DNA from: Bosea sp. AS-1 | GTDB lineage: Bacteria > Pseudomonadota > Alphaproteobacteria > Rhizobiales > Beijerinckiaceae | Assembly: GCF_002220095.1 (NCBI RefSeq) | Contig: NZ_CP022372.1 | Coordinates: 1,150,501-1,214,500, forward strand | DNA length: 64,000 bases | Direction of reading: 5' to 3' | Shown: one piece after another, positions 33,242 to 54,253 of the stretch | How the letters are laid out: each line of letters opens with the position of its first letter | Numbering within the stretch: the first letter of the stretch is position 1 | The notes under the pieces: model-generated | Seen by the model: the letters and a program-made list of their open reading frames with translations, nothing else | Database searches by the model: none | What the model was told of the DNA's origin: nothing | Position numbers and translations under genes: made by a program

Positions 33242-33264
33242 GATTCTCTGCGGCCTGTCAGGGC

Positions 33265-35071: not shown

Positions 35072-35119
35072 GCGAGAGCACTCCTCAAAGAAGGGAGGGG
35101 GTAGGGGTCCATGCGGCTG

Positions 35120-35923: not shown

Positions 35924-35995
35924 TGGGAGGTTCTCCAGCGATTGAAAGTTGGTCGTTTCGGCGCCGATAGGGCGCCTTCGGGGTTGCCGGTTCGA

Positions 35996-36375: not shown

Positions 36376-36395
36376 TGCTGCCGGTTTCGTGGACA
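36376..36395. repeat. IS terminal inverted repeat, left
   Basis: 20 bp, perfect inverse of 37585-37604; begins with the TG typical of IS3-family ends. Confidence 0.9.
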
Positions 36396-36400
36396 GTCGG

Positions 36401-37548: not shown

Positions 37549-37584
37549 ACGCCACCTCCGGTTTCATGAAACACCTAATCTCGG

Positions 37585-37604
37585 TGTCCACGAAACCGGC
37601 AGCA
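37585..37604. repeat. IS terminal inverted repeat, right
   Basis: 20 bp, perfect inverse of 36376-36395. Confidence 0.9.
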
Positions 37605-38071
37605 GGCCACTTCCGGTCGTTCTTATCGTGGATAATCCGTCTGGCTTCCGACCATTCGGCGTCCGTAAAGAGATAGACTAGGTCTTGCTGCCTTCCGAGA
37701 TCTGCAATTTGAGGGATCGGCTCGGCCACGGCGAGCTGACCTAGGGAAGCTAGGCTGGAGCCAAGCCTAGAGCCAAGTGGACCAAGGGCAGAGACCTGCT
37801 GCCGTGGATCGTGGCCGAGCGATGGTTCATAAGAACCATGAGTCTCCTTAAGGGTGCGATGGACGATATTCCTCCAAAACCTATCAACGCCATCAATCGA
37901 AGCTGGTGGTAGAGGATCGGCTTCCTCAAGGAATTCAGCGATTTTCCACTCGATCCCAAACATTTGTCGGCCGATGCGGTCAATCGCTGGAACGGTAAAG
38001 AGCAGGCCAGTTGGCTGGTTGGGCCAACTAGCTTCGTTCGTCCAAAGCAATTCGGGTCGTGTTGTTACCAT
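37605..38071 (-). pseudogene. 5' part of a gene split by an IS3-family element
   Basis: Begins at ATG 38071 (MVTTRPELLWTNEASWPNQP) and runs into the IS, where the frame goes on for 27 residues into IS sequence. Joining it to 35996-36371 across one copy of GGCC gives 843 bases, a continuous frame for 280 residues. No domain recognised. It was probably the first gene of the leftward operon. Confidence 0.75.
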
Positions 38072-38170
38072 TCTCGTCGCACCCCGCGACGCACCTGAGT
38101 GTAGGACGGGGAAATCAGGTGGTGCGCCCTGACTTGTCGGCTGGCCGGCCTATCCCCGCCCGTTTCGGAC

Positions 38171-39397
38171 CTATCCTGCTTGTGCGCGGATTGGCGTCAC
38201 GTTGTCTGCCTTGGCTTTTGCAGTGCTGAGATACCCGGCCCACGCGTCCATGAGCTTCCGCCGCTTCATCAGCGCATCACCGCGCCGATAAGCGCGCTCA
38301 GTTTCGTCACCGACGACATGCGCCAACGCGGCCTCGGCAATCTCACGTGGGAAGGACGTGCATTCGCCCGCCCAATCGCGGAAAGAGCTGCGGAAGCCGT
38401 GCGGCGTGAATTGCTCTTTGTCCATCCGCCGCATGAGCATGAGAATGGCGTGGCTTGATAACGGCCTGTTCTTCCGGGCGCCGGGAAAGACGAAGTCATT
38501 CTCGCGCGCCTGGTGCATGGCGCGGGCAATATCGAGAGCGCGGGCCGTCAACGGCACACGATGAATTCGCTCAGCCTTCATTCTGGCCGCCGGCACGGTC
38601 CAGATTCCGCGATCAAGATCGACCTCATCCCAGGTCGCGCCGCGAACCTCGCCAGTTCGAGAAGCCGTGAGGATCAGGAACTCCAGGGCGCGGGCGGCAA
38701 TCGCATCACGCTCGCGCAGATCCTTCACGAAGGCGGGAACATCGTCATAGGCCATGGCGGGATGATGCCCGCGTGCGAGCCTTGAGCGCTTGGGCAACAA
38801 TTTGTCGAGATGACCTCTCCAGCGAGCAGGATTCTCGCCGGTTCGTTTTCCTTTGGCCTTCGCGGCATCAAGGATGCGTTCTATCCGGCCGCGGACTCGG
38901 GACGCCGTTTCCTGCTTCGTCTTCCAGATCGGCTTGAGCACGTCCAGCACATGCTCCGTCCCGACCTCGTTAATGGAAAGAGGCCAGAGGCACGCAGCAT
39001 GCGTCTTGAGCGATGATAGCCACTGCGCCTGATGCTTGGTGTTCCGAAATCCCGATCTGATGTCCTCGATCAGAATTTCTGCGAATTCCCCGAAGGTAGA
39101 GACAGCGTTGCGGCTCGCCTCTGCTGCGGCTTCCTTTCTCGCCTCAATCGGATTTGTGCCGGCGTCCAGAAGCTTTCGTGCTTCGGCGGCTTTGTCGCGC
39201 GCGTCGGCCAGGCCGACGGCACTCAGGCCGCCTAGCCCCATCTCCTTGCGGCTCCCGCCCCATCGAAACATGAAGAGCCAGCGCTTGGCTCCGCTCGCAT
39301 CGACGACGAGATAAAGCCCGCCGCCGTCGCTATGACGCCCTGGCTCGGTCAGCGTCGCGACACCGCGAGCGGACAGTTTGTTGATTTGGCGGCCCAC
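38171..39397 (-). CDS. P4-type tyrosine integrase
   Basis: 408 residues, GTG start. The N-terminal arm-binding DUF4102 domain (LTEPGRHSDGGGLYLVVDAS) is followed by a core-binding domain and a C-terminal catalytic domain with Arg in TASRTGEVRGATWDE, His/Arg in HGFRSSFRDWAGE and the nucleophile Tyr in ERAYRRGD. This family usually integrates at tRNA 3' ends, matching the tRNA-Ser site. Its 5' end lies 145 bases from the right attachment core. Confidence 0.96.
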   Translation of the reverse strand: MGRQINKLSARGVATLTEPGRHSDGGGLYLVVDASGAKRWLFMFRWGGSRKEMGLGGLSAVGLADARDKAAEARKLLDAGTNPIEARKEAAAEASRNAVSTFGEFAEILIEDIRSGFRNTKHQAQWLSSLKTHAACLWPLSINEVGTEHVLDVLKPIWKTKQETASRVRGRIERILDAAKAKGKRTGENPARWRGHLDKLLPKRSRLARGHHPAMAYDDVPAFVKDLRERDAIAARALEFLILTASRTGEVRGATWDEVDLDRGIWTVPAARMKAERIHRVPLTARALDIARAMHQARENDFVFPGARKNRPLSSHAILMLMRRMDKEQFTPHGFRSSFRDWAGECTSFPREIAEAALAHVVGDETERAYRRGDALMKRRKLMDAWAGYLSTAKAKADNVTPIRAQAG

Positions 39398-39403
39398 CGG
39401 CTA

Positions 39404-39423
39404 CCCCACCTTTAGCCCCACCG
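39404..39423 (+). repeat. Putative integrase arm-type site, right
   Basis: A 20-bp sequence matching 27684-27703 at 16 of 20 positions in the same orientation, 118 bases inside the right core. Confidence 0.5.
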
Positions 39424-39541
39424 GGCGGTGGTCATTGTGTGGCACGGCATGACAGGTTCAGGCAATGGTTTCCCGTTCTGTTCCGCATGGTTTTCCACGA
39501 AATGCAGGTGCCGTCGTGCCGTGGCAGTTCAATTACGCGGA

Positions 39542-39555
39542 CTCCCTGTCCGCCA
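39542..39555 (+). repeat. Right attachment core
   Basis: CTCCCTGTCCGCCA, a direct copy of the tRNA-Ser 3' end at 27613-27626. Confidence 0.75.
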
Positions 39556-39741: not shown

Positions 39742-40674
39742 CTACTTCTTTGTCGACCTGTCGCCAGCTGCCAAGGTCGGGGGCGCATCGGGAATCTGCG
39801 TTGCGAATGTGACTTTGCAACGGATACCTGCCGGCAGCGTCAATTGCGGGTTCGGCAAAGCCAGGCGCACGCCGAATGTCCCGCTTGCCGCGTCGAGCAC
39901 ATGATCGACCACGGTCACGAGCGCATCATGGACGCCGCCGATCGGCTGTTCCGGACGCACCTCGGCCTTGCTGCCGACAAGGATCTGCCCGAAGCGAGCG
40001 GAGGGCACGAAGACTTCGACCCTCAGTGGATCGATCTGCGCCAGCGTGAGAACCGGACTCTGGTCGTTGCGATATTCGCCCGGAACGAGGAGGCGCTCGA
40101 CCACCACACCGTCGATCGGGCTTCGCAGCGTTCGCTGGTTCAAGACCTCTTCCGCATGGGCCACTTCGAGACGGGCGATGCTCAGATTGAGGCGCGCCTC
40201 CTTGAGTTGCTGCTCGGCGACGCCGACCTCGGCCTCGATTTCTTCAAGCGAGGCAAGCGAACTGATCGCCCGGCTGTGGAGCTTGTCCAATCGATCATAC
40301 TTGCTGCGCAGGAACTGCACGCGCGCTTCGGCCGATTTGACGGCCGCGTCATTGGTTGCCCGAGCACGTGCGAGCGCCAGGTTCGCCACTTCGACGCCAT
40401 CCTCGATCTTGCCGACGACCTGGCCCTTCCGGACGATATCGCCCCGGTCGACATCAAGGCGCGCGATCAATCCGACCACAGGGCTCGCAAGCTTGACGAC
40501 CTGTTGCGGCTCGATCACGCATTCGAATTCCTGTGCATTGGCGGGCGGCGCTGCCGGCGCCTGCGCCCAGGCAGGAGAAGCTGTCAGGGCGAGGCACAGC
40601 GACCACCACGCATACCATGCAGTGCGGTGCATTCGCTGGAATTCGTGGAAAGCTCGTCCCCTCGATGTCACCAT
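39742..40674 (-). CDS. Secreted HlyD/RND-type periplasmic adaptor protein
   Basis: 310 residues from ATG 40674; starts at 40770 and 40632 are also possible. A signal peptide ends near SLCLALTASPAWAQAP. Then come the lipoyl-like half (CVIEPQQVVKLASPVVGLIA), a coiled-coil hairpin (EARVQFLRSKYDRLDKLHSR ... EEIEAEVGVAEQQLKEARLN) and the second lipoyl/beta-barrel half (RSPIDGVVVERLLVPGEYRN). It probably bridges inner and outer membrane components. It is divergent from the GAF-adaptor gene, with no pump gene of its own nearby, so it likely serves the export locus. Confidence 0.85.
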   Translation of the reverse strand: MVTSRGRAFHEFQRMHRTAWYAWWSLCLALTASPAWAQAPAAPPANAQEFECVIEPQQVVKLASPVVGLIARLDVDRGDIVRKGQVVGKIEDGVEVANLALARARATNDAAVKSAEARVQFLRSKYDRLDKLHSRAISSLASLEEIEAEVGVAEQQLKEARLNLSIARLEVAHAEEVLNQRTLRSPIDGVVVERLLVPGEYRNDQSPVLTLAQIDPLRVEVFVPSARFGQILVGSKAEVRPEQPIGGVHDALVTVVDHVLDAASGTFGVRLALPNPQLTLPAGIRCKVTFATQIPDAPPTLAAGDRSTKK

Positions 40675-40961
40675 GGGTAACCTGCGCAGCTTTCGATCGG
40701 CTTCGCGCTTCGAAGCCCTGACGGGGCACCACCGCCCTACAGCACATGACGCCTCTTTTTTTTGACTCATTCAAGCAGCCGGACCTAAGGTAATCTGCCG
40801 GATTTCCGGAGCACGGTACCGTAATCGCAGATAGATTATCGATTTCGCGGCAAGATCAGGCTGAGGGGCGGCGTGGCTACGCGCCTCGTCGGGGTGCAGG
40901 CAAGAGCGACCACTACGGAATGTAGGCAATATCCATTCTCGACGTGCTTTGGACGCCACAC

Positions 40962-42881
40962 ATGTTTGAGCCAGACCGAGGCCGAACGGCGAACGCGGAA
41001 CCACCGCCACCATTGCTTGTGGTACCGGTAGAGCCATCTACATCGCCGCACTGGCGCGGTCTGCTCGATGCGGGCCATGAAGCGGCGTTTGGTTCCGCTT
41101 GGCTTGCGTTAGAATGCAACCGTATCGCGGGGGTTGCCGCGGGCCTGCTGCTCATCAGGCCTGCCGTGTCAGATGCGCCGTGCCTGTCGCTGACCTGGCC
41201 GGCGCGTGACATCCAGGTCAGCGACCTTTCGCGGTTGGCCGGACAGGCTCTTGCAGAGCGCCGTGTCATCGTCGCTCCCGGTCGCGTCGGCCCTGAAGCA
41301 AGCCCGGCGCAACATGTCGCACTCGTCGTCGCCTTGCCGCTCGGCGCAGGCGCGCCAATTGCCGCCGCCGCGATAGCCTTGACGACGACCGCTGGCGTAC
41401 CCGTCGTCGCTCCAGAGGCCGTCGCCGAGCAATTGCGCTGGGGAGCGGGCTGGCTCGAGGCCCTGCCTTGGGCGCGACGAGCCAAGGCCCTTTCGCTCGA
41501 TGTCGCGCGCGCCGCATCCTGCCTCGATCTGCTCGCAGCGGTCGGGGCGCAGACGCGACTGCCGGAGGCAGGGATCAGCATCGTGAACGAGCTTGCGACG
41601 CGCCTGCGATGTGATCGGGTATCGCTGGGCGTGATCAAGCGGAACGGTACCATCCGCCTCCTGGCGATGTCGCATTCCGCCAGCTTCAAACACGAAAGCC
41701 GCCTGACGGACTCCATCGAAAACGCGATGGATGAAGCGATCGAGCAGTCCCGCAGCGTCGCTTATCCGCTGCTGCCCGTGATGGAATATGCCGTGCATAT
41801 CGCCCATCAGGCGCTGGCGGAAGGGGCGAAGACCGCCGGTACAACGACCATGTCCGCCGTGCTGAACGGCAATAGGGGCGAGCCGATCGGCGCGCTCACT
41901 TTCGAACGTCACGGGGCCGAGCCGTTCACCGCGGATACGTTGCAACTGGCGGAAACCATCGCAGCCTTGCTCGGACCGCAGATCGGATTGCGGCTGCGAG
42001 CGAACAGATGGATCGCCGGGCGCGTGATCGATCGCCTCCGCGACGGGGCCGACGCGCTGTTAGGCCCACGGCGACCGGGCTTCAAGCTCGCCGCCATTGC
42101 TCTGGGGGGGCTCACGCTCACCGCAGCCTTTGCGCATGGAGAGCACCGCGTCACCGCAAAGTCGGTGCTCGAAGCCGAGCTGCAACGCGCGGCCATCGCA
42201 CCGTTCGACGGGTATATCCGGACAGCTCCGGTCCGTGCCGGCGATACCGTGCGGAGTGGCGATCTCCTGGTCGCACTCGATGACCGCGACCTCCTTCTCG
42301 ATCGCTCGAAGTGGCGCGCCGAGCGTGACAAGCTGCTGCAACGGCAGCGGGAGGCGCTCGCCAAGCACGATCGCAACAACCTCGTCCTCATCGAGCCGCA
42401 GATCCGCCAGGCCGAGTCACAGTTGGAGCTTGCAGAGGAGAAGCTCGTCCGGGCACGCATCCTCGCGCCCTTCGACGGCGTCGTCGTCTCGGGAGATCTG
42501 AGCCAGATGCTCGGCTCTCCGGTGGAGAAGGGCAAAACCCTGTTCGAGATCGCCCCGCTGGAGGCTTATCGCCTGATCGTCCAGGTCGACGAGCGCGATG
42601 TGCGTTATGTCGCGGTGGGGCAGAGCGGTACCGTCGCCCTCGCGGGTCAGCCCGGCAATCTGCTGCCAATGACCTTGAGCAAGATCACGCCGGTGACGGT
42701 CGCGGAGGAGGGACATAATTCCTTCCGGATCGAGGCCCGTCTGTCGGAGCCTGGTTTGCATCTGCGCCCCGGGATGGAAGGTGTCGCCAAGATCGAAACC
42801 GGACGGCGCTCGCTCGTCTGGATCTGGATGCACCCTGTTTTCGATTGGCTGCATCTCGCTGCGTGGAAATACCTGCCCTGA
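40962..42881 (+). CDS. GAF-domain HlyD-type membrane adaptor
   Basis: 639 residues from ATG 40962; a GTG six codons upstream is possible. The order is a cytoplasmic N-terminal region, a GAF domain at about 200-343 (ISIVNELATRLRCDRVSLGV ... GEPIGALTFERHGAEPFTAD), one membrane helix at about 373-393, then a HlyD-like part (APFDGYIRTAPVRAGDTVRS, a coiled coil, and APFDGVVVSGDLSQMLGSPV). A cytoplasmic sensor is thus fused to a periplasmic adaptor. Nine bases separate it from the M50 fusion gene, so it is co-transcribed. Confidence 0.85.
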   Translation: MFEPDRGRTANAEPPPPLLVVPVEPSTSPHWRGLLDAGHEAAFGSAWLALECNRIAGVAAGLLLIRPAVSDAPCLSLTWPARDIQVSDLSRLAGQALAERRVIVAPGRVGPEASPAQHVALVVALPLGAGAPIAAAAIALTTTAGVPVVAPEAVAEQLRWGAGWLEALPWARRAKALSLDVARAASCLDLLAAVGAQTRLPEAGISIVNELATRLRCDRVSLGVIKRNGTIRLLAMSHSASFKHESRLTDSIENAMDEAIEQSRSVAYPLLPVMEYAVHIAHQALAEGAKTAGTTTMSAVLNGNRGEPIGALTFERHGAEPFTADTLQLAETIAALLGPQIGLRLRANRWIAGRVIDRLRDGADALLGPRRPGFKLAAIALGGLTLTAAFAHGEHRVTAKSVLEAELQRAAIAPFDGYIRTAPVRAGDTVRSGDLLVALDDRDLLLDRSKWRAERDKLLQRQREALAKHDRNNLVLIEPQIRQAESQLELAEEKLVRARILAPFDGVVVSGDLSQMLGSPVEKGKTLFEIAPLEAYRLIVQVDERDVRYVAVGQSGTVALAGQPGNLLPMTLSKITPVTVAEEGHNSFRIEARLSEPGLHLRPGMEGVAKIETGRRSLVWIWMHPVFDWLHLAAWKYLP

Positions 42882-42890
42882 GACGCCGAC

Positions 42891-45044
42891 ATGACCGTCG
42901 CACCGTTCCTGAGCTCCTCCTGGTATCGCGTCGCGCTCCGCAAGCCAAAGTTGCGCGATCATGCCTCGGTCCATCGCCACCGCTATCGCGGCAATGTCTG
43001 GTACGTCGTGCATGATCACGCCACCGGCCGTGTGCACCGCTTGTCGCCGGCGAGCTGCATGATGATTGCCGCCATGGACGGCGTGCGCACGGTCGACCAG
43101 CTCTGGCATGCGATTGGAGCCAAGCTGGGAGAGGAGGCACCGAGCCAGGGCGACGTGATCCGGTTGTTGGCCGAGCTCAATGCTTCGGATCTGCTGCAGA
43201 CCGAGGTCACGCCCAATTCGGATGCGCTCATGGAACGCGCCGCACGGGCAGGGCGGTCTGGGTGGCTGAGCAATGTGCTGTATCCACTGGCGCTGCGAAT
43301 CCCGTGCTGGCATCCGGACGCGTTCTTCGAGCGCACGCGGCCGATCGCCCGATGGATGTTCAGTCGCTCGGGAGCGATATTGTGGCTGCTTGTCATGCTC
43401 CCGGCGCTGCTGCTGGCGGCGCAGCACTGGCAGGAGCTGAATGCCGATGCCACCGACCGCATCCTTGCGGCCGACAACATCGTGCCGCTTGCCCTGACCT
43501 ATCTCCTGCTCAAGGTCATGCACGAGTTCGGGCATGGATTTGCCGTCAAGGCATTCGGGGGGGCCGTGCACGAGTTCGGTGTGATGGTTCTGGTCTTTGC
43601 GCCGCTCCCTTACGTCGATGCCTCGGCCGCATCGGGATTCCGCAGCAAATGGCAACGCGCGCTCGTCGGTGCGGCCGGAATGATGGTCGAGCTGTTTATC
43701 GCGGCGCTCGCACTTTACGTCTGGCTTGCCGTCGAGCCTGGAATTGTCCGGGCACTGGCTTTCAACGCCATGGTGGTGGCAGGCGTTTCCACCGTGCTGT
43801 TCAACGGCAATCCGCTCCTGCGTTACGATGGCTATTACATTCTTGCCGATCTGCTGGAGATTCCGAATCTTGCGCAGCGCGCCACCCGCTACTGGGGGTA
43901 TCTCATCGATCGGTATGTGTTTCGCACCGATGGGGCGAGGGATTTCGTTGCGACGAGTGGCGAGCGCATCTGGTTCCTCTTCTACGGGCCCGCTGCCTTC
44001 TTCTACCGTCAAGCCGTCATGCTGGGGATCGCGATATTCATCGCATCCCAGTATCTCGCTGTCGGCATCGCGGTTGCGGTCTGGAGTCTGTTGACGGGCA
44101 TCGCGTTGCCGATCGGCAAGGCGTCCTGGCTGGTGCTCACGAGCCCACGACTTCAGCGCAATCGTACTCGCGCAATAACCGCGACCTTCGGCGCAATCCT
44201 GGTCGCCGGGAGCGCCCTGTTACTGATCCCGGCACCGTTCTACTTCACGACCGAAGGCGTGGTCTGGTTGCCCGAGCGTGCCATCCTGCGCGCGGGGGCG
44301 AACGGCTTCGTGCGCGATTTCCTGGTCGAGCCCGGCCAAAGAGTGCAGGCTGGCGATGCGTTGATCGAAAGCGAAGATCCCGCATCCAAGACCGAACTCG
44401 AAATCCTGCGGGCGCGCGTCACGGAACTCGAGATCCGCCTTGCCACGGAGCGCTTTGCCGATCGCATACGTGCCGAGATCACAACCACGGAGCTGGGGCA
44501 GGCGCGCGCCGAGCTTGAGACCGCAACCAGCCGCGCTGAGCGGCTCATCGTTCGCAGCCCCGGCGATGGCATCTTCTCGGTGATGAAATCGCAGGATCTG
44601 CCCGGGCGCTTTGTGCGCGAGGGCCTGCTGATCGGCTATGTGCTCCCGCCCGACACGCGCATCATCCGCGCAACGATCGGGCAGGACGACATCGATCTCG
44701 TTCGTGACCGGTTGCGCAGCGTCACGGTCAAGCTGGCGGAGCGCCTCGATGAGACCTTGCCGGCGACGATCGTTCGCGAGGTTCCTGCCGGGCACAACAA
44801 TCTTCCGAGCCGGGCCCTTGGGAGTCCCGGCGGCGGTGCGGTGACGGTCGACCCGGCTGACACGCAAGGAACCAGGACGCTGCAACGTGTTTTCCAGGTA
44901 GACGTCGAGCTGTCCGCAAATGCCACGGCGCCCATCGCCTTCGGCGGTCGTGCCTATGTGCGTTTCGATCATGACTGGGAGCCGGTCGGCTGGCAGATGT
45001 GGCGGCGCGTGCGTCAATTGCTGCTTTCCCGGCTGCAGATCTGA
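42891..45044 (+). CDS. PqqD-like domain / M50 site-2 protease / HlyD adaptor fusion
   Basis: 717 residues. Residues about 24-107 resemble a PqqD-like peptide-recognition domain (VHDHATGRVHRLSPASCMMI ... LLAELNASDLL). A multi-helix M50 protease core has HEFGH at 211-215 and the third zinc ligand in NGNPLLRYDGYY (Asp313). The C-terminal 270 residues form a lipoyl/coiled-coil HlyD-type periplasmic part. It could bind a leader peptide, cleave it in the membrane and hand the chain outward. All catalytic residues are intact. It lies between the GAF-adaptor and SecA-like genes. Confidence 0.88.
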   Translation: MTVAPFLSSSWYRVALRKPKLRDHASVHRHRYRGNVWYVVHDHATGRVHRLSPASCMMIAAMDGVRTVDQLWHAIGAKLGEEAPSQGDVIRLLAELNASDLLQTEVTPNSDALMERAARAGRSGWLSNVLYPLALRIPCWHPDAFFERTRPIARWMFSRSGAILWLLVMLPALLLAAQHWQELNADATDRILAADNIVPLALTYLLLKVMHEFGHGFAVKAFGGAVHEFGVMVLVFAPLPYVDASAASGFRSKWQRALVGAAGMMVELFIAALALYVWLAVEPGIVRALAFNAMVVAGVSTVLFNGNPLLRYDGYYILADLLEIPNLAQRATRYWGYLIDRYVFRTDGARDFVATSGERIWFLFYGPAAFFYRQAVMLGIAIFIASQYLAVGIAVAVWSLLTGIALPIGKASWLVLTSPRLQRNRTRAITATFGAILVAGSALLLIPAPFYFTTEGVVWLPERAILRAGANGFVRDFLVEPGQRVQAGDALIESEDPASKTELEILRARVTELEIRLATERFADRIRAEITTTELGQARAELETATSRAERLIVRSPGDGIFSVMKSQDLPGRFVREGLLIGYVLPPDTRIIRATIGQDDIDLVRDRLRSVTVKLAERLDETLPATIVREVPAGHNNLPSRALGSPGGGAVTVDPADTQGTRTLQRVFQVDVELSANATAPIAFGGRAYVRFDHDWEPVGWQMWRRVRQLLLSRLQI

Positions 45045-45054
45045 GGCCGATGAG

Positions 45055-47073
45055 ATGTCGTATCCTCTTGGCTTACGGCCGGGTGCCGGCTCGCTCGCGA
45101 TCGATGCGCCTTATGCCGAGCGCGCAAGCTGCAAAGAGGGCCGCATCGACGGTGCACTGCTTGGCGGCTGGGGCCGGGTCTCGCCCCACTTGTTGTCCGC
45201 CATTCGGCGACATCGGCTCTCTCGCTTCGCGCGGCTGATCGAGACGCTGGAGCCACAGGTGGCGAACCTGCCGGATCGACGGCTGCGCGAGCTTGCCGAC
45301 GACCTGCGTGCACGATTGCGGTCGGCGCGCCTGTTCTCGCGGGAAAGTGCGCTTTCATTTGCGCTTGTGCGCGAAGCGGCGCGCCGTCACGTCGGCATGC
45401 GCCACTTCCACGTCCAGTTGCTAGGCGGCGCCGCCATGATGGGAGGGGCAATCGCCGAAATGGAAACCGGCGAAGGCAAGACCTTGACGGCGTTGTTGCC
45501 GGCAATCACCGCAGCGCTCATGGGCCGGCCGGTTCATGTCATCACCGTCAACGACTATCTCGCCCGCCGTGATGCGGAGCAACTCGGCCCCGTCTACGCT
45601 GCGCTCGGCCTTACCGTTGGATTGGCCGAGCACGGGCAATCGCCTGAGGACCGACGCCGCGCCTACGCCAGCGACGTGACCTACTGCACCAACAAGGAAC
45701 TGGTGTTCGACTATCTCCGGGACCGGCTGGTGCTTGGCCCGCGGCGCGCGAGCGCCCGGCTCCTCGTCGACCGGATGTTCCGGGATGGGCAGATCGGTGG
45801 CCTGCAACCGCTGCTTCTCCGCGGTCTGCATTGTGCGATCGTGGACGAGGCCGACAGCGTACTCATCGACGAAGCGCGCACGCCGCTGATCCTTTCCGGA
45901 GCACAGGAAGGTGCCGAGAACGCCGCCGGTCTCTACGAGGCTGCGCTCGATATCGCGCGCCGCCTGGATCCCGGCGATGCATTCCAGGTGCTGCCAAACG
46001 AAAAATCGATACGGCTCACCGCAGATGGCGAAAATCAAATCGCCGAGCTCGCTGCCGGAATGCCGGGCTTGTGGATCATTCGACGCGCCCGCGAGGAACT
46101 GGTCCAGCATGCGCTTGCCGCCCTGCACCTGTACCGCCGCGACGTCCAGTACATCGTTGCCGACGGGAAAGTGCAGATCGTCGATGAATATACCGGGCGC
46201 GTCATGCCGGACCGCTCATGGGAGAGCGGTATTCATCAGCTGATCGAGGCCAAGGAGCACTGCGCCATCACGGAGCGCCGCAAGACGCTGGCACAAATCA
46301 CGTATCAGCGCTTCTTCCGCCGCTATGTGCATCTCTGCGGCATGACCGGTACTGCAACCGAGCCCGCGGGGGAATTATACGCCACCTACGGCCTGCCGAT
46401 CGTTCGCATTCCGACGAATAGGCCATTGCGGCGCGCGAATGCGGGCACGCGCATGCTGTCGACGGCAGAACAGAAGTGGAAGGCCGTCCTTCGCTCTGTT
46501 CAAGCGGAGACACGCGCGGGCCGTGCCGTTCTGGTCGGAACGCGGTCGGTGGAAGCTTCCGAACAGATCTCGCAGTTGCTGCGCGCGGCAGGGCTCGAAC
46601 CCATGGTCCTCAACGCGCGGCAGGATCGCGAGGAGGCCGAGGTCGTGGCACGCGCGGGCCAACCGGGCCGGATTACCGTCGCGACCAATATGGCTGGGCG
46701 CGGCACCGACATCCAGCTGCATGCGGCGGTGCGCGACGCAGGCGGCCTCCATGTCATCTTGACGGAATACCACGAATCCCGACGCATCGACCGTCAGCTT
46801 TACGGGCGTGCCGGCCGACAGGGCGATCCGGGCAGTTACCAGGCCATCGTCGCTATCGAGGATGAAATCTTTCAACGCTTTTCCTCGCGCGGATTGCTCC
46901 AGCTGGTCACTCGAAATCTCGCACCTGATCGGCAAATTCCTGCTGCGATCGCGCTCGCGCTGCGCAGCTACAGTCAAAGCGCAGCCGAGCGATTGCACGG
47001 ACGCGCGCGCCAGGCTGCCGTTGCTGAGGATGATCGCATCAATAAAATTTTCGGCTTCGCCGGACCAGAATGA
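45055..47073 (+). CDS. Short accessory SecA-like translocase ATPase
   Basis: 672 residues against about 900 for housekeeping SecA. Present: Walker A METGEGKT (136-143), VNDYLARRDAEQ, DEAD box (264-267, DEADSVLIDEARTPLILSG), the preprotein-crosslinking domain, and NBD2 with TNMAGRGTDIQL and ESRRIDRQLYGRAGRQGDPG. The helical wing/scaffold region and zinc-binding tail are almost absent: only about 80 residues follow NBD2. It probably powers secretion of the LEPR-XLL protein encoded next. Start ATG 45055 follows the M50 stop by ten bases. Confidence 0.93.
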   Translation: MSYPLGLRPGAGSLAIDAPYAERASCKEGRIDGALLGGWGRVSPHLLSAIRRHRLSRFARLIETLEPQVANLPDRRLRELADDLRARLRSARLFSRESALSFALVREAARRHVGMRHFHVQLLGGAAMMGGAIAEMETGEGKTLTALLPAITAALMGRPVHVITVNDYLARRDAEQLGPVYAALGLTVGLAEHGQSPEDRRRAYASDVTYCTNKELVFDYLRDRLVLGPRRASARLLVDRMFRDGQIGGLQPLLLRGLHCAIVDEADSVLIDEARTPLILSGAQEGAENAAGLYEAALDIARRLDPGDAFQVLPNEKSIRLTADGENQIAELAAGMPGLWIIRRAREELVQHALAALHLYRRDVQYIVADGKVQIVDEYTGRVMPDRSWESGIHQLIEAKEHCAITERRKTLAQITYQRFFRRYVHLCGMTGTATEPAGELYATYGLPIVRIPTNRPLRRANAGTRMLSTAEQKWKAVLRSVQAETRAGRAVLVGTRSVEASEQISQLLRAAGLEPMVLNARQDREEAEVVARAGQPGRITVATNMAGRGTDIQLHAAVRDAGGLHVILTEYHESRRIDRQLYGRAGRQGDPGSYQAIVAIEDEIFQRFSSRGLLQLVTRNLAPDRQIPAAIALALRSYSQSAAERLHGRARQAAVAEDDRINKIFGFAGPE

Positions 47074-47302
47074 GGCCTGCGGCGTAACACCGATCATGCA
47101 CAGTTAAGCTTATGGTAAGAGCTCTTTTTTCCTGTGTTGACTTTAAGAGACTTAAAATAAAGTGCGCCGCTTTTACATAGTTAACAACTCTAATGCGGTA
47201 TGATATTGAAGCAATCCGTTGCCTTACGCCCAATTCCGGCAGGGTGGAGTTGGGTTCGATGTGCGAGCCCAGAATTCCGTTGCTTGAGGTTGGGAGAACG
47301 CA
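47074..47302 (+). promoter_or_regulatory. AT-rich leader region of the LEPR-XLL gene
   Basis: 229 bases, much richer in A/T than the flanks between 47101 and 47215. It contains TTGACT (47137-47142), TTTACA (47172-47177) and TATGAT (47199-47204), but none is paired at 16-18 bases, so no promoter is fixed. GGGAGA lies eight bases before the start codon. Confidence 0.35.
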
Positions 47303-50300
47303 ATGTCGGGTTCTGTCGGCTTGTTCACCCGAGTGACGCAGCGCTTCGCCAGCCGGCGTGCTCGACGAGCAAGTAGAGACAGAAAACCCTCTTCGCCATC
47401 CGCGCAGATGATCTTTGAAACGCTCGAGCCACGGCTGCTGCTGGCTGCCGACCCTCTCGGCATCACGGCCGGCTACGCCTTCGACGAAGTCTCTGGCACC
47501 GTTGCGGCGGACGCATCGGGCCATGGCCTCTCCGGCACGCTGACGAACGGCCCTACTTTCTCCGCGGGAAAATACGGAAACGCCGTGGCACTCGACGGCG
47601 TGAACGACTTCGTGAATCTCGGTAACCCGACTGCGCTGCAACTCACCGGCAGCATGACCGTCAGCGCCTGGGTCTATGTCAGCGCGTTTCCCTCTGACGA
47701 CGCGGCTGTTGTCTCCAAGCGCACCTCGGCTGAATCCGGCTATCAGCTCGATCTCACCAAGGACACGGGCCCGCGCACCATCGGCTTCAAGCTCACGACC
47801 AACACCGGCGGGGCGATGTTTCGCTACGGTGCAACGCCCCTGCAGCTCAACACATGGTATCATATCGCCGGTGTCTACAACGCCGCCAACCAGACGCTGG
47901 ACGTCTATCTCAACGGCGCCCTCGACAACGGCCAACTGACCGGCACCGTCAGCAGTTCCCAGCAGAATTCGACGGCGAACGTGAACATCGGCCGCCGTGC
48001 GGGCAATACGGGCTTCGAGTTCTCCGGGCGGATAGACGACGTCCGCATCGCCGATCACGTGCTGACGCAAGCGCAGATCCAGACGGATATGACGACCCCG
48101 CTCGGCGGAACCACGCCGCCGCCGCAGGATACGACCCCGCCGACCGTGGGGTTGACGCCGCCGGCATCGATCCTCTCGAAGACGGTGAACCTTGCAGCCA
48201 CGGCCTCCGACAATATCGGCGTGGTCGGCGTGAAGTTCCTGCTCGATGCCAACACGACGATCGGTGCCGAGGATACCACATCGCCCTATGGCGTTTCCTG
48301 GAATACGACGACCGTATCGAACGGCGCTCACACCATCACGGCGCAGGCGCGCGACGCTGCCGGCAACATCACCACATCGACTGCGGCTGCAGTTGTCGTC
48401 GACAATCAGGCGCCGACCGGGACTATCGTCATCAACGGAGGGGCGAGTGCAACCAACAGCACCGCCGTCACGCTCGCACTGACCGCAACCGATGCGGTTA
48501 CATCGGTCACGCAAATGCGGTTCTCCAACAACGGCACTTCATTTTCGACCGCCGAGGCGTTCGCATCCTCTAAGACATGGACGCTCTCCAGCGGAGCCGG
48601 GACCAAGACCGTCTATGTCCAGTTCAGCGATGCCGCCGGCAATTGGTCGACCGCCGTCACCGATACCATCGTCCTCGATACGACGGCTCCGACGATTTCG
48701 GCGCGGACGGCGACCAACATCACGGGCAATTCGGCGCAAATCACCTGGACGAGCAACGAGGCGGCGACTTCCCGCGTCGAGTACGGACTCACGACCAGCT
48801 ACGGCGCGACGACGACGCTTGATCCGACTCTGGTGACGGCGCACAGCGTCGCGCTCGCCGGTCTGGCCTCAAACACGACCTATAATTACCGCGTCCGCTC
48901 GATCGACGCCGCCGGCAACGAGGCGATCAGTGCGAACAGCACGTTCAAAACCGCTGCTGCAGCCGATACGACGCCCCCCTCGACCCCGAACGGCCTCACG
49001 GCTACCGCCGTTTCGACCACACAAATCAACCTCTCGTGGAATGCTTCGACGGACAATGTCGCGGTCACGGGCTATCAGGTCTTCCGCAACAACACGCAGG
49101 TTGGAACGTCTGCCACAACCACGTTCAACGATACCGGCCTGTCGCCGGGAACCACGTATAGCTACACTGTACGCGCAGTGGATGCGGCCGCGAATCCTTC
49201 GGGGCAATCGGCGCCTGCGAGCACTACTACGCTCGTGCCTGACACGGTTCCGCCATCAGCCAGCATCACAGCGCCGACAGGAGCCTCGCCGCTCTCCGGC
49301 ACGGTGACGATCAGCGCCGCTGCATCCGACAACATCGGCGTTGGCGGCGTGACCTTCCTGGTCGACAACGTCGCGATCGGTGGGGGCGAAGATAAGACGG
49401 CTCCGTATAGTGTCAGCTGGGACACGACCACTGTCGCCAACGGAACCCACACGATCGTCGCACGCGCTCGCGACACATCCAATAACACCACGGACTCGAC
49501 CCCCGTCACCGTGACGGTATCCAATACGCAGATCGCCGGCTTGGCGGCCGCCTATTCGTTCGACGAGGGCGTTGGCGCGACCGCCTACGATTCCTCCGGC
49601 CAGGGAAACACGGCGACGCTGGCCAATGGAGTTGCGTGGGTGGCAGGCCAGCACGGCAAGGCGGCGAGCTTTGACGGCGTCAACGACTACATCACGATCC
49701 CGAACTCCGCCTCGACCAATATTTCCGGCAACGCGCTGACCTTGTCGATGTGGATCAATCCCCAGCCGCTGGCGACCGGCGATTCCGTCGTGATCGGCAA
49801 GTTCTGGAATACCTCGATGTCCTCGCCCTACTATCAGTATGGCTTGGAACTCGGCGGCGGCAACAAAACCGACTTTTACATCGGAACGAGCAGCGGGCCG
49901 CGCGTCGCCATGGCGGGCACCACGCTACCGTTCAACCAGTGGACCTATCTTGCCGTCACCTTCGATGGCGCGCAGGTGCGGACCTATGTCAATGGCACCC
50001 TCGTCAACACGCAGGCGCTCTCTGCATCCATTACGGCTCGCGGCAACGCCATGAACATCGGAGCGGATGCCTCGACCGCCCAATTCCAGAAGGGATTGCT
50101 CGACGACGTGCGCATCTACAACCGCGTGCTGACACAGACACAGATTCAGTCGGATATGGCCGCACCGGTGGGAGGCCCGATCACCGGAGCTCCGCAGGTG
50201 TCGATCGATTTCCCGGCCAATGGCGCGCAGGTGAACGGCATCGTCAATGTGACAGCCGATGCAACCGACGACACCGGCATCGCGAGCGTCCAGTTCTATA

Positions 50301-52999
50301 TCGATGGCATCGCCACGGGCGCCCCTGATGCGGCCGCTCCCTACGCGCTCGCCTGGGATACGCGAACGGCGAGCAATGGCTCGCACACGATCACGGCCCT
50401 CGCCGTCGATATCGACGGCCATGTGGCGTCGTCAGCGCCGATCGCCGTGAATGTCGCGAACGCCAGCTATTTCCAGAACGAAATTCTCGCCACAGGCTTC
50501 GATCTCCCGACCGCGATCAAGTTCCTTCCCGATGGCCGCATGCTGGTGGCCGAACTGGCGGGCAAGATCAAGGTCTTGCCGGCGCCCTATACAACACCCG
50601 ATCCGACGCTATTCCTGCAGCTGAGCAATATCGGCTCGGCCGGCGTGCAGCAAGGGATCTATGACATCGCCCTTGATCCCAACTTCAACACGAACCATTA
50701 CTATTACGTCTTCTATACATTGGGGTCGCCGAACGTCGACCGCTTCTCGCGGTTTACTGCAAATGCGACATTGACCGGGACGGTCGCCGGCAGCGAATTC
50801 GTCATCTATCAGGATACGGAGATCGCCAATGCCGAACACCATGGCGGCGCGATCAACTTCAGCAACGACGGCAAGATCCTCATCACCACCGGCGAGCACT
50901 TCAACGCAGGCGAGGCGCAGGATCTGACAAAACCGCGCGGCAAGATCCTGCGCTTCAACATGGACGGCACGGTACCGACCGACAACCCCTTCTATGATGG
51001 CGCAGGCCCGCATTTCGACGCGATATGGGCGCTCGGACTCCGCAACCCCTTCCGGGCCTATTACGACGCGCCGACCGGGCGCCTGATCATTGGCGATGTC
51101 GGCGGGAATACCTATTCCACCGCGATCGAAGAGATCGATATCGGCGCGAAGGGCGCCAATTACGGATGGCCCAACGTCGAAACGCCTGACGGCAATCCCG
51201 CCTACACGGCGCCAGCCTATTACTATCCGCACAATGGGCGCGACGCCGCCGTCGTTGCGGGGTTCGTCTATCATGGGACGCAATTCCCCAGCGAATACCA
51301 GGGCAGCTTCTTCTTCGCCGACTACACGCAGAATTGGATCAAGCGCCTGACCTTCGACGCCAATGGCAATGTCACCGGCGTTTTCAACTTCGAACCGCCG
51401 GACGGATCCGTCGATGGCCCCTACGGCGATATCGTCTATCTGACGGAAGGCCCCGACGGCGCGCTCTACTATGTCGATCTCGGCTATTCCGATATCAGCG
51501 GCACGTTCGGCGTGAGCAAGATCCGCCGCATCGAGTTCATCGATTCAAACCTGCCTCCGGTGGCGGCCGCTTCCGCCTCGCCTACCCAGGGGCCGACCCC
51601 GCTCACCGTGAACTTCTCCAGCGCCGGCTCTTCCGATCCGGAGGGGCAGCCATTGTCCTATTCGTGGAATTTCGGAGACGGCACGACATCGACCGAAGCC
51701 AACCCATCGCACACCTATGCTGTCGCGGGCCCATATCAGGCTCGCCTCACGGTCTCCGATGGAACCAATTCGACACTCTCCACGCCCATCGCAGTCAGCG
51801 CCGGCAATCGTCCCGCCGTGACCATCACCTCGCCGGCCGACGGTGTGCTGTTCAGGGCGGGCGATGTCATTTCCTTCAGTGGGGCTGCGACCGACGTCGA
51901 GGATGGGACCCTGCCCGCCAGCGCTTATACTTGGAACATCGACTTCCTCCATGAAGGGCACGTGCATCCGGGCATCCCTATCACCGGCGTGACCAGCGGC
52001 ACCTTCACGATCCCGACCTCCGGGCATGATTTCAGCGGCTTCACCCGGTACCGGATCACGCTCACTGTCACGGATTCCAGCGGGTTACAGTCGAGCCAGG
52101 CGCTGACCATCTTCCCGGACAAGGTCAATCTCAACTTTGCGACGGCGCCCGCCGGTGTGACGCTCTATCTCGACGGTGTCGCGCGCACGGCGCCGTTCAC
52201 ATACGACACGCTGATCGGCTTCAATCACGAGATCGAGGCGCGCAACGCGACGGTCGGGTCGACCACCTACAACTTCGCCTCATGGTCCGATGGCGGCACG
52301 CAGGATCACATCATCGTCGTACCGGCCGGCGGGGCCACCTATACGGCGACCTACAACGTGGTCACCGCGCCTGCGCCCTTGGCTTTCGTGCAAACGAACT
52401 CGGCCACGCCGCAAACCAATCAGACGCAGGTCGCGGTCCCCTATACGAAAGCGCAAGTGGCCGGGGACACCAATATCCTCGTCATCGGTTGGAACAACGC
52501 CACCTCCAACATCACGTCGGTCACCGACTCTGCGGGCAACGTCTATCAGCTCGCTGTTCCGACCGTACGCGGAAGCGGGATCAGCCAGGCCATCTATTAC
52601 GCGAAGAACATCAAGGCTGCCGCCGCAGGGGCCAATACGGTGACGGTGACCTTCAATACTTCCACGCAGTTCGTCGATCTCCGCGCGCTCGAATATAGTG
52701 GCCTCGACCCCGTCAACCCGTTCGATGTCGGTGCATCGGCGTCGGGCACGAGCAGTTCGGCGAATAGCGGTGCGGTCAGCACGACGGCTGCGCGCGAACT
52801 TATCTTCGGTGCAGGAACAACGACGGGAGGATTCTCTGCGGCCGGGAGCGGCTTCACCACGCGCATCATCACGTCACCGGATCTCGACATTGCCGAAGAC
52901 CGGTTCGTAACGACAACCGGGAGCTACAGCGCTACCGCATCGCTCGCGGGATCCGCGGCCTGGGTGATGCAAGTGGCGACGTTCAAGGCCGCGGGCTAG
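47303..52999 (+). CDS. Giant LEPR-XLL surface/secreted protein with LamG, Ig/FN3, sorbosone dehydrogenase and PKD domains
   Basis: 1,898 residues. An Arg-rich N-terminus leads to LEPRLLLAAD (41-50), the LEPR-XLL sorting motif; there is no ordinary signal peptide. Then: LamG-like domain (54-268), bacterial Ig-like (276-460), FN3-like (461-643), Ig-like (646-743), second LamG (745-955), Ig-like (963-1053), glucose/sorbosone dehydrogenase beta-propeller (1056-1413, with ALGLRNPFRAYYD and GANYGWPN), PKD (1418-1500), and further beta domains to the end. No RTX repeats, LPXTG or PEP-CTERM anchor. It is likely an exported carbohydrate-binding and possibly PQQ-dependent sugar-oxidising protein. Confidence 0.92.
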   Translation: MSGSVGLFTRVTQRFASRRARRASRDRKPSSPSAQMIFETLEPRLLLAADPLGITAGYAFDEVSGTVAADASGHGLSGTLTNGPTFSAGKYGNAVALDGVNDFVNLGNPTALQLTGSMTVSAWVYVSAFPSDDAAVVSKRTSAESGYQLDLTKDTGPRTIGFKLTTNTGGAMFRYGATPLQLNTWYHIAGVYNAANQTLDVYLNGALDNGQLTGTVSSSQQNSTANVNIGRRAGNTGFEFSGRIDDVRIADHVLTQAQIQTDMTTPLGGTTPPPQDTTPPTVGLTPPASILSKTVNLAATASDNIGVVGVKFLLDANTTIGAEDTTSPYGVSWNTTTVSNGAHTITAQARDAAGNITTSTAAAVVVDNQAPTGTIVINGGASATNSTAVTLALTATDAVTSVTQMRFSNNGTSFSTAEAFASSKTWTLSSGAGTKTVYVQFSDAAGNWSTAVTDTIVLDTTAPTISARTATNITGNSAQITWTSNEAATSRVEYGLTTSYGATTTLDPTLVTAHSVALAGLASNTTYNYRVRSIDAAGNEAISANSTFKTAAAADTTPPSTPNGLTATAVSTTQINLSWNASTDNVAVTGYQVFRNNTQVGTSATTTFNDTGLSPGTTYSYTVRAVDAAANPSGQSAPASTTTLVPDTVPPSASITAPTGASPLSGTVTISAAASDNIGVGGVTFLVDNVAIGGGEDKTAPYSVSWDTTTVANGTHTIVARARDTSNNTTDSTPVTVTVSNTQIAGLAAAYSFDEGVGATAYDSSGQGNTATLANGVAWVAGQHGKAASFDGVNDYITIPNSASTNISGNALTLSMWINPQPLATGDSVVIGKFWNTSMSSPYYQYGLELGGGNKTDFYIGTSSGPRVAMAGTTLPFNQWTYLAVTFDGAQVRTYVNGTLVNTQALSASITARGNAMNIGADASTAQFQKGLLDDVRIYNRVLTQTQIQSDMAAPVGGPITGAPQVSIDFPANGAQVNGIVNVTADATDDTGIASVQFYIDGIATGAPDAAAPYALAWDTRTASNGSHTITALAVDIDGHVASSAPIAVNVANASYFQNEILATGFDLPTAIKFLPDGRMLVAELAGKIKVLPAPYTTPDPTLFLQLSNIGSAGVQQGIYDIALDPNFNTNHYYYVFYTLGSPNVDRFSRFTANATLTGTVAGSEFVIYQDTEIANAEHHGGAINFSNDGKILITTGEHFNAGEAQDLTKPRGKILRFNMDGTVPTDNPFYDGAGPHFDAIWALGLRNPFRAYYDAPTGRLIIGDVGGNTYSTAIEEIDIGAKGANYGWPNVETPDGNPAYTAPAYYYPHNGRDAAVVAGFVYHGTQFPSEYQGSFFFADYTQNWIKRLTFDANGNVTGVFNFEPPDGSVDGPYGDIVYLTEGPDGALYYVDLGYSDISGTFGVSKIRRIEFIDSNLPPVAAASASPTQGPTPLTVNFSSAGSSDPEGQPLSYSWNFGDGTTSTEANPSHTYAVAGPYQARLTVSDGTNSTLSTPIAVSAGNRPAVTITSPADGVLFRAGDVISFSGAATDVEDGTLPASAYTWNIDFLHEGHVHPGIPITGVTSGTFTIPTSGHDFSGFTRYRITLTVTDSSGLQSSQALTIFPDKVNLNFATAPAGVTLYLDGVARTAPFTYDTLIGFNHEIEARNATVGSTTYNFASWSDGGTQDHIIVVPAGGATYTATYNVVTAPAPLAFVQTNSATPQTNQTQVAVPYTKAQVAGDTNILVIGWNNATSNITSVTDSAGNVYQLAVPTVRGSGISQAIYYAKNIKAAAAGANTVTVTFNTSTQFVDLRALEYSGLDPVNPFDVGASASGTSSSANSGAVSTTAARELIFGAGTTTGGFSAAGSGFTTRIITSPDLDIAEDRFVTTTGSYSATASLAGSAAWVMQVATFKAAG

Positions 53000-53261
53000 T
53001 TCGGCTGCATCGACTCCGTGCGTTGGTTGAAGCGCGTGCTTCGACGCGGCACGTCCGCCGCTGAAGCGGCCGACGTGCAGGGCAGGTTCGCTTTGGGGCA
53101 GCTCGACGGTAGGCCGCAGGAGTGGTACACGCAGTCAATCGGGGCGGCTATTAAGTCATTGAATTTGCTAAATCAGAGGCGTGGAAAGCCCAATCCCTCT
53201 CAGCTCGCTGCTTCTGCATTACCAGCGGCTGCCATGGCGTTCCTGCGTTCGGGCTTCTCTC
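53000..53261. other. Intergenic stretch with no supported gene
   Basis: 262 bases. A short inverted repeat near 53028-53045 (GAAGCGCGTGCTTC) could be a weak terminator; an 84-codon frame here lacks any recognisable feature. Confidence 0.4.
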
Positions 53262-54182
53262 ATGCGCGTTGATGTCCTGGGGCTTCAGGCCTTCGTCAGC
53301 ATCGCTGAGCGCGGCAGCTTCCGTGCGGCCGCCTCTCATCTCAATCTTTCGCAGACGGCGTTGAGCCATCGCATTCGCAAGTTGGAAGAAGCTCTCGGCA
53401 CGCCGCTCTTTCTGCGGACGACCCGACAGGTCTCCCTGACCGCTGCCGGCACCACGCTGCTGCCGCGGGCGCGGCGCATCTTCGAGGATCTTGGTTCGGC
53501 GCTCGACGAGGTTCGGGTCGATCTGCGGGAGGGCGACGAGCAGGTTTCCGTCGGCTGCCTGCCGACGATCGCGGTGCACTGCATGCCGGCGGTCATCGCG
53601 GCCTTCGCCAAGCGCCATCCCGGCATCGGGGTCAGAGTGCATGACAACTCGGCCTCCGAGATCGCGGACAAGGTGCAGTCTGGCGAGGCGGAATTCGGTG
53701 TCACCATCGTCGCCGCCAATCGCTGGGACCTCGAACTCAAGCCCGTCGTCAAGGAATCTTTCGTGCTGCTCAGCCATCGCAGCCAGCCGCTGGCCTCGGC
53801 GACGGGGCTTAGCTGGGCGCAATTGCAGGGCGAACCGCTGGTCAGGGTCAGCGCAGAGACCGGCAACCGCATCCTGATCGACGATGCGCTCGGGGCGCGG
53901 CGGGAAACGCTGAGCTGGCGCTATGAGGTCCAACGGGTCGTGACCGCCGTCAGCCTGGTCCGTGCCGGCATCGGCTATGCGATCGTCCCCCAGCTCGCCC
54001 TGGACACGATCGACGACGGCGAGCTCGTGGCGGTACCGCTGCGCTCGCCGAGCGTTACGCGCACGCTCGGCATCATCACACGCAAGACCGTGCCCCTACG
54101 TCCTGCGGCGCGCGACCTGCTCTCGCTGCTGAGCCAGGCCTTGAAGCGTAGTGTTGCGGCGCGGCGGGATGAATCAAAGTAA
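53262..54182 (+). CDS. LysR-family transcriptional regulator
   Basis: 306 residues, ATG 53262. The N-terminal winged helix-turn-helix is LQAFVSIAERGSFRAAASHL ... LSQTALSHRIRKLEEALG, and the effector-binding domain follows with SVGCLPTIAVHCMP and LSHRSQPLA. It probably controls the aromatic-acid genes downstream in response to a pathway intermediate; this is inferred from position. Unusually it is in the same direction as its presumed targets. Confidence 0.93.
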   Translation: MRVDVLGLQAFVSIAERGSFRAAASHLNLSQTALSHRIRKLEEALGTPLFLRTTRQVSLTAAGTTLLPRARRIFEDLGSALDEVRVDLREGDEQVSVGCLPTIAVHCMPAVIAAFAKRHPGIGVRVHDNSASEIADKVQSGEAEFGVTIVAANRWDLELKPVVKESFVLLSHRSQPLASATGLSWAQLQGEPLVRVSAETGNRILIDDALGARRETLSWRYEVQRVVTAVSLVRAGIGYAIVPQLALDTIDDGELVAVPLRSPSVTRTLGIITRKTVPLRPAARDLLSLLSQALKRSVAARRDESK

Positions 54183-54253
54183 TCAATCCCTGCATTCTTA
54201 TCATTTGATGGGGGAATGAGGCTGCTCCACCTTGGCTGCGGGAGACAACGCGC

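Follow-up and report, generated by a model that had tools for sequence, protein, structure and literature searches.

A protease-fusion cassette accompanying LEPR-tagged giant proteins in Bosea sp. AS-1 and other bacteria: a candidate export system

Introduction

In the genomes examined, a clear LEPR tag on a large protein was almost always accompanied by a cassette of envelope genes. Judging from the sequences, the constant catalytic part of this cassette is not SecA but a protease fusion, in which a PqqD-like domain, an M50 site-2 protease and an HlyD-type adaptor are joined. Gene content, co-occurrence, adjacency, the pairing of tags with cassettes, a conserved protease motif and the optional presence of SecA together suggest that the cassette probably recognises and processes giant proteins with an N-terminal LEPR leader and carries them across the envelope. 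The export of proteins of many thousand residues with neither an evident signal peptide nor an ABC exporter is an open problem in Gram-negative bacteria, and it is addressed here from the cassette of Bosea sp. AS-1 (contig NZ_CP022372.1), which lies in the window, i.e. the whole stretch of 64,000 nucleotides that was analysed.

A computational account of a SecA/M50-HlyD/GAF-HlyD/HlyD locus, regarded as related to type 1 secretion systems (T1SS), was given by Kamneva, Poudel and Ward in 2015 (PMC4452313). According to the available text of that paper, the locus comprises SecA_DEAD without SecA_SW, M50-HlyD, GAF-HlyD, HlyD and, in some loci, OEP, and it forms one operon in Methylobacterium extorquens AM1. 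Its main text names no substrate, and the terms 'LEPR', 'PqqD' and 'large protein' are absent from it. The window shares with that module SecA_DEAD without SecA_SW and the adjacent genes for M50-HlyD, GAF-HlyD and HlyD. The available text defines the locus by SecA; in the present analysis, the invariable component is the fusion, SecA can be missing, and one sister type has none. A LEPR-XLL giant is mentioned in the available text of a Vibrio genome paper (PMC10868602), and the present system is not described in that of PMC3482391, PMC8277102 and PMC7730722; neither a link of the cassette to tagged giants nor the sister (type B) system was found in the literature searched. The present analysis assigns to this locus, published without a substrate, a substrate class with strong support, a tag that can be read and, as its testable core, a protease. 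Also found were the sister system without SecA and a near-identical copy of it in some E. coli, mostly on plasmids.

The cassette and its giant protein in Bosea sp. AS-1

All five open reading frames (ORFs) proposed in the initial annotation are present, and the gaps of 9, 10 and 229 bases given there are exact. On the reverse strand lies a free periplasmic adaptor of the HlyD/RND type (39742..40632, 296 aa; ORF open from 40770), with matches to HlyD_D23 (Pfam, 1.4e-19) and RND_mfp (NCBIfam, 130.8 bits against a cut-off of 94.9). Its true start is probably 40632, from which the N-terminus reads MHRTAWYAWWSLCLALTASPAWAQ and yields what by eye appears to be a Sec-type signal peptide. The intergenic region between this divergent adaptor and the operon (40633..40943) is, from its position, a probable promoter region. 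The forward strand encodes a GAF-HlyD adaptor of 645 aa (40944..42881; Pfam GAF 3.7e-7, HlyD_3 8e-18), whose GAF domain would lie in the cytosol and whose HlyD part would reach the periplasm beyond a single membrane helix, the PqqD-like/M50 site-2 protease/HlyD fusion of 717 aa (42891..45044), a short SecA-like ATPase of 672 aa (45055..47073; ORF open from 44920) and the LEPR-XLL giant of 1898 aa (47303..52999), the candidate substrate. Profile searches divided the loci collected into 57 of type A, the window included, and 39 of type B; the leader of the giant likewise places the window cassette in type A.

Pfam gave no RND, MFS or ABC family for any of the five cassette proteins, and no inner-membrane channel was recognised in the cassette. 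The absence of TolC noted initially holds for the window, where an OEP gene was found neither among the five cassette ORFs nor elsewhere, but not beyond it: elsewhere in the host genome (5.84 Mb), OEP matches occur in five ORFs, one of 221 aa and the others of 491-638 aa, and many type B loci carry their own channel gene. SecY is present in a single copy, and there is one further full SecA besides the short one. The cassette resembles a tripartite exporter, sharing with type 1 secretion (HlyB/HlyD/TolC; the exporters of LapA and SiiE) the HlyD-type adaptors, a TolC-type channel and giant adhesin-like cargo; it differs in having no ABC transporter, in the N-terminal position of the tag and in the fusion of a protease to an adaptor. 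It was not filed as a T1SS because the ABC transporter test failed.

The leader of the giant (residues 1-50; 47303..47452, forward strand) consists of a basic stretch of 40 residues followed by LEPRLLLAAD, which was confirmed at residues 41-50, as first reported, with a match to NF012209 at residues 37-57. LEPR-XLL (NF012209, LEPR-8K) is a sequence label only; the window giant scores 31.6 bits, above the NCBIfam cut-off of 17, and is the only match above cut-off in the host genome, and the FDGA tag of the sister type scores low. Beyond the leader, Pfam recognises two LamG, three Big_7 and two fn3 domains, a GSDH (sugar-dehydrogenase) propeller and PKD. RTX families gave no Pfam match in this protein at E<=0.01, although an uncatalogued C-terminal signal may exist. 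With 1898 aa, it stands at the small end among the stronger LEPR-8K matches of the phylum sample.

Co-occurrence of tag and fusion across genomes

The co-occurrence search proposed in the initial annotation was run on a sample of 397 genomes from the window's phylum, and tag and fusion were found to co-occur, so that the refuting outcome named in that annotation, a lack of co-occurrence, did not arise. LEPR-8K matches were present in 91 of these genomes at E<=0.1, and matches to the fusion profile in 97 at E<=1e-10, with 84 genomes at 200 bits or more; only fusions of at least 200 bits entered the contingency tables, weaker fragments being dropped. When LEPR matches of at least 20 bits in ORFs of at least 300 aa were considered, 42 genomes had both, none had LEPR only, 42 had the fusion only and 313 had neither (Fisher p 1.6e-33, a value that ignores descent). 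The same score with any ORF length adds one LEPR genome without the fusion (G226, a 64-aa frame). Lower thresholds gave a similar picture: at 17 bits and ORFs of at least 500 aa, the counts for both, LEPR only, fusion only and neither were 56, 3 (G028, G035, G217), 28 and 310, respectively; at 15 bits they were 66, 7, 18 and 306 with ORFs of at least 500 aa, and 64, 1 (G028, 17.2 bits), 20 and 312 with ORFs of at least 900 aa. Fusion candidates were scored as the best two per genome in the phylum sample and the best three in the order sample described below, so that further copies are possible. Half of the fusion-bearing genomes (42/84) thus have no LEPR match of at least 20 bits in an ORF of at least 300 aa; LEPR-8K gives low scores to the type B tag, FDGA.

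Counted by genus, with at least 15 bits and ORFs of at least 900 aa, both were found in 38 of 231 genera, LEPR only in none, the fusion only in 10 and neither in 183. The tag tracks the fusion in four genera in which the fusion is patchy, namely the window's own genus (g1), g3, g7 and g104; genus g4 includes the exception G028, and genus g10 has two fusion-bearing genomes without a LEPR match. This table covers genera as labelled among the matches listed, and more patchy genera are possible. Among 297 genomes of the window's order (ORFs of at least 500 aa), 16 had both, none LEPR only, 21 the fusion only and 260 neither; three LEPR matches in frames shorter than 500 aa occurred without the fusion (G430, G485, G574). 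Seven of the 16 order genomes with both are new with respect to the phylum sample, and the fusion is present in all seven.

Gene neighbourhoods

At any listed score, the phylum sample contains 92 LEPR ORFs of at least 900 aa, all but one of them in fusion-bearing genomes; of these 91, 53 share a contig with the fusion, 45 of them at a distance of 6.5 kb or less. Adjacency is less frequent among the stronger matches (at least 20 bits, ORF at least 900 aa), 27 of 53 lying within 6.5 kb of the fusion. Another giant is located 0.6 Mb away in G019 and 1.2 Mb away in G006, and a single cassette may therefore act on more than one giant; the distance in G137 and G221 is about 11 kb, with the giant on the opposite strand. 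Among the loci with more than 3 kb on both sides, 30 of 34 in type A and 29 of 32 in type B have a large ORF (at least 900 aa, or at least 600 aa if cut) on the same strand within 4 kb of the cassette; over all loci, the figures are 38/57 and 31/39, respectively. A chance neighbourhood of cassette and giants was rejected on the strength of the counts.

A scan of contigs with the fusion provided 15 loci, the only source of evidence beyond the window's phylum. The order GAF-HlyD, M50-HlyD, SecA, HlyD recurs in long contigs of Gammaproteobacteria (L009) and Desulfobacteraceae (L015), and the cassette genes have the same order in a Burkholderiales contig (L016), in which the GAF-HlyD frame is split. 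A complete set in this order, but with HlyD on the opposite strand, occurs in Omnitrophota (L008), with no giant within its 17.8 kb, and a partial set in Verrucomicrobiota (L019); the finding of the gene set in contigs of other phyla indicates more than chance. Tagged giants adjoin the cassette in L007 (LEPRVLLSA), L009 and L010 (LEPRVLYSAD), L012 (LEPRLLYSAD) and L021 (IEPRILHSAD).

Annotated relatives are similarly arranged. A plasmid of Thalassospira marina encodes an annotated LEPR-XLL giant with the leader IEPRILLSAD, DUF3467, an HlyD-family adaptor, the fusion, an adaptor and TolC, with no SecA, and one of Pontibrevibacter encodes an annotated LEPR-XLL giant, DUF3467, an adaptor, the fusion, a SecA-like protein and an adaptor. 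Cassettes with SecA are also found in Pseudosulfitobacter, beside a giant gene of 38,214 bp with the leader FEPRVLLSAD, and in Mesorhizobium ciceri, with a giant gene of 31,557 bp. The annotated 1,479-bp neighbour of a Magnetospirillum plasmid cassette has no tag, and in the Azospirillum giant the tag was not seen at the annotated start.

A small DUF3467 protein (PF11950) is encoded beside the giant or GAF-HlyD gene in L211, L212, L221, L222 and 18 type A loci (e.g. L018:7681-8067). It was considered as a missing part of the cassette and rejected: present in those 18 type A loci, it was yet not found in the window.

Two cassette types and two leader dialects

Type A cassettes comprise GAF-HlyD, M50-HlyD, usually a short SecA, and HlyD, and go with the tag LEPR-x-LLS-(A/G)-(D/E), whereas type B cassettes comprise a TolC-type channel, HlyD, GAF-HlyD and M50-HlyD and go with LEPR-M-(L/M)-FDGA. 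In profile searches, HlyD was found in 43, GAF-HlyD in 51 and the outer-membrane channel (OMF) in at least one of the 57 type A loci, and the corresponding numbers for the 39 type B loci were 35, 38 and 22; an OMF gene also adjoins the cassette in named plasmid records. The OMF profile was made from four sequences, and the type A count is a lower bound because L015, L021 and L135 seem by eye to carry TolC-like ORFs.

Leaders were collected as 40 stretches, of which 39 could be read (L184 gave none) and 33 were paired with a fusion; another 18 came from loci and the window, giving 51. Serine stands at +7 in 27 of 31 type A leaders, and D or E at +9 in 27; type B leaders have D at +7 in 20 of 20 and F at +6 in 18, although +7 is not fully free in the 18 leaders from loci and window because the search pattern demanded S, A, D, G or T there. 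Five genomes (G006, G014, G105, G097, G137) have leaders read beside two different cassettes, and in each of them every giant next to one of these cassettes has the tag that matches it: LEPRF(M/L)LSGE versus LEDRIL(L/M)SA(E/D) in the first three, and LLS/LLN versus FDGA in G097 and G137. These are not five independent events because some of the genomes are closely related, and co-inheritance of the operon alone would equally match tags to cassettes.

By first-start reading, 18-69 residues precede the motif. The peak 12-residue hydropathy of the leaders is mostly under that of two yardstick signal peptides (2.52 and 1.99), two leaders reaching 2.0-2.3; this assessment is a crude hydropathy check only. 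In one type A giant (L009:15668-22117) and one type B giant (L213:3226-10269), the leader is followed by DUF4347 as the first Pfam domain, which may therefore be a post-leader module common to both types.

Type B occurs in Kosakonia (leader of the giant LEPRMLFDGA), in Azospirillum and in one record of an E. coli IncF plasmid (LESRQLFDGAA). On this plasmid (L215, NZ_CP104683.1), the cassette is accompanied by a 13.4-kb gene for an Ig-like giant. By megablast, 24 of the 5,426 complete E. coli genomes have a near-identical type B fusion, at 25 places in all, and 21 of these are on plasmids.

The protease fusion

The window fusion consists of a PqqD-like (RRE-like) N-terminal domain (residues 10-105; 42918..43205), an M50 part with the zinc-protease motif HEFGH (residues 211-215; 43521..43535) and a C-terminal periplasmic HlyD/MFP domain (residues 448-700; 44232..44990), all on the forward strand. 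Its Pfam scores fall below the cut-offs for both M50 (PF02163; 22 bits against 27.2, two type B relatives reaching 39.8 and 27.9) and PqqD (PF05402; 20.5 against 23.4). A profile of 13 fusion relatives matches the solved PqqD 3g2b over residues 17-102 (E 2e-4), and the profile of the sister family matches the solved site-2 protease 3b4r over a short stretch of 30 positions (191-220; E 9e-4). The Foldseek and VIA-align matches listed for the model of the window fusion include no site-2 protease, the HlyD domain having filled the lists. H211, E212, G214 and H215 are invariant across 13 aligned fusions, and the motif pair of site-2 proteases is completed in the window fusion by a downstream NPxxD-like NGNPLLRYD (305-313). 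HExxH, counted anywhere within the best fusion ORF of at least 600 aa of each locus, occurs in all 94 full-length fusions (55/55 type A, 39/39 type B), and the two families align over their full length, including the N-domain (hhalign probability 100).

Residues 20-401, comprising the PqqD-like and M50 parts, match NF041824 (E 1e-43; 149.8 bits against a cut-off of 300). The fusion is in this part akin to the M50 proteases of RiPP leaders (daptide HExxH, NF041824; YydH/LiaK, NF058609), but it stays below the NF041824 cut-off, is fused to HlyD and would act on a giant protein rather than a peptide. That the fusion recognises and trims the leader, as had been suggested, appears plausible in view of the PqqD-like N-domain, the HExxH of all full-length fusions and the pairing of tag subtype with cassette subtype. 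The protease is placed at the centre of the cassette because every full-length fusion has HExxH, whereas a number of type A loci have no SecA or a copy that has lost ATPase motifs.

The short SecA-like ATPase

The window SecA-like protein matches Pfam SecA_DEAD (1.5e-103), PP_bind and P-loop_SecA and aligns to SecA chain 3jv2 over 20-590 of 783; no Pfam match to SecA_SW (HSD/HWD) was found at E<=0.01, and the C-terminal region is also missing. According to the alignment, its Walker A motif TGEGKT (residues 138-143; 45466..45483, forward strand) is intact. An AF2 model, with a mean pLDDT of 65.6, was left unused. Like an accessory SecA2, the protein is a second SecA-like ATPase beside a housekeeping copy, but it differs in scoring 413-579 bits with the four NCBIfam SecA2 models, under their cut-offs of 725-1100, in lacking SecA_SW and in the single SecY of its genome.

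The strongest alternative to a protease-centred cassette is that the short SecA takes the place of the ABC ATPase, driving the giant through SecYEG or through an M50 pore, with M50 perhaps being no more than that. Such drive by SecA is the model of the initial annotation and close to what the available text of PMC4452313 proposes, and it agrees with the presence of a SecA-like ORF in 49 of 57 type A loci (profile search) and with the retention of TGEGK[TS], DE[AVS]D and GRGT[DE] together in 35 of 42 full-length SecA-like ORFs, the window copy included. It is nevertheless rather unlikely, as none of the 39 type B loci has a SecA-like ORF, the window copy lacks SecA_SW, and some type A loci have either no SecA or one without its motifs; a mere pore, moreover, would not need the HExxH that is kept throughout. 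SecA-like ORFs are absent from the uncut type A loci L124, L135 and L155 (the last with a divergent type A fusion, 221 bits), and in L007 the giant directly follows the fusion with no SecA between; L013, L017, L020 and L123 are truncated by contig ends. One motif is missing in each of the SecA-like ORFs of L097, L084 and L128, L012, L137 and L098 have lost all three, and L138 retains only the DE[AVS]D match. The last four (L012:7315-8943, L098:10882-12684, L137:3946-5811, L138:11042-12994) are apparent pseudo-ATPases at the SecA position.

The SecA profile was run against 80 genomes, with up to 15 candidates considered for each: five with type A, 45 other fusion-bearing ones, i.e. those without a type A cassette scoring above 500 bits, and 30 without the fusion. 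Among the candidates scored, a short SecA was found in the window's genome only. All others, including those of the 45 fusion-bearing genomes, which also argue against SecA drive, were ORFs of 727-1098 aa or pieces, which are read as housekeeping SecA. The absence from type B and the decay in some type A loci rule out SecA as a universal motor, so the initial claim that the ATPase drives the chain is unsupported as a general rule. The window copy, with its motifs intact, may still be the motor in this locus. What stands of the initial interpretation is that the cassette goes with LEPR giants and, as a plausible reading, that the fusion recognises and trims the leader; SecA drive lacks support in general, and the lack of TolC is particular to the window.

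Proposed mechanism and remaining alternatives

RRE domains hold RiPP leaders. In the mechanism favoured here, in which the protease fusion is central, its PqqD-like domain would retain the leader, which has no clear signal-peptide core by crude hydropathy, at the inner membrane, and the giant would cross this membrane through the single SecYEG of the genome or through a pore made with the M50 helices. The site-2 protease may then cut near LEPR-LLS|AD, both cleavage and site being guesses. The three HlyD-type adaptors (protease-fused, GAF-fused and free) would build a passage through the periplasm to a TolC-type channel, whose gene adjoins the cassette in many type B loci and, for the window, presumably lies elsewhere in the host genome. 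The short SecA could serve as an energising accessory in most type A systems rather than as a universal motor, and the GAF domain may gate the system by sensing something cytosolic.

More tentatively, the two types may constitute a separate class of secretion pathway, in which proteins of about 1,900-19,000 residues carry an N-terminal leader that an RRE-like domain recognises and a site-2 protease, itself part of the periplasmic conduit, cleaves. Each of the leader dialects, LLSAD and FDGA, would have its own dialect of the machinery, and the pathway would work without ABC, RND or any other canonical pump. If true, bacteria would be applying RiPP-style leader logic anew to their largest proteins.

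Alternatively, a different route could take the giants to the surface, and the GAF, M50 and HlyD proteins could sense, cleave, release or retain them, as LapD/LapG do, in concept, for LapA. The GAF domain on one adaptor and the lack of a recognised inner-membrane channel would fit such regulated release or signalling, and site-2 proteases often act in signalling. Three adaptors and the TolC-type channel beside many type B cassettes point instead to a transport conduit, and the tag precedes DUF4347, which is not a known retention module (in the two giants scanned from the start besides that of the window); regulated release is therefore regarded as improbable. It is hardly credible that the cassette serves small-molecule or metal efflux and lies near giant genes by accident, for although the free adaptor scores as RND_mfp and relatives are auto-annotated as 'efflux RND transporter periplasmic adaptor', no RND, MFS or ABC protein accompanies it in the window cassette, and co-occurrence and adjacency are far above chance.

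Genomic setting

A probable integrative element (27537-39555) abuts the cassette. It includes a tRNA-Ser(CGA) gene (27537-27626), whose 3' end CTCCCTGTCCGCCA is repeated (14 bases) at 39542-39555, a phage-type integrase gene beside this repeat (38171-39397) and an IS3-like transposase pair (36401-37548). An inverted match, likewise of 14 bases, came up in that search near 40621-40635, so that repeat length alone is no proof, and the argument is one of position. The cassette was rejected as cargo of the element because the probable end of the latter precedes it.

The right boundary at 53000-53261 is sharp. In G328, a genome of the same genus in which tag and fusion were not found, the LysR gene is conserved together with its right flank (80% over 53261-55088), and the 19.5 kb compared contain no match to any other part of the window.
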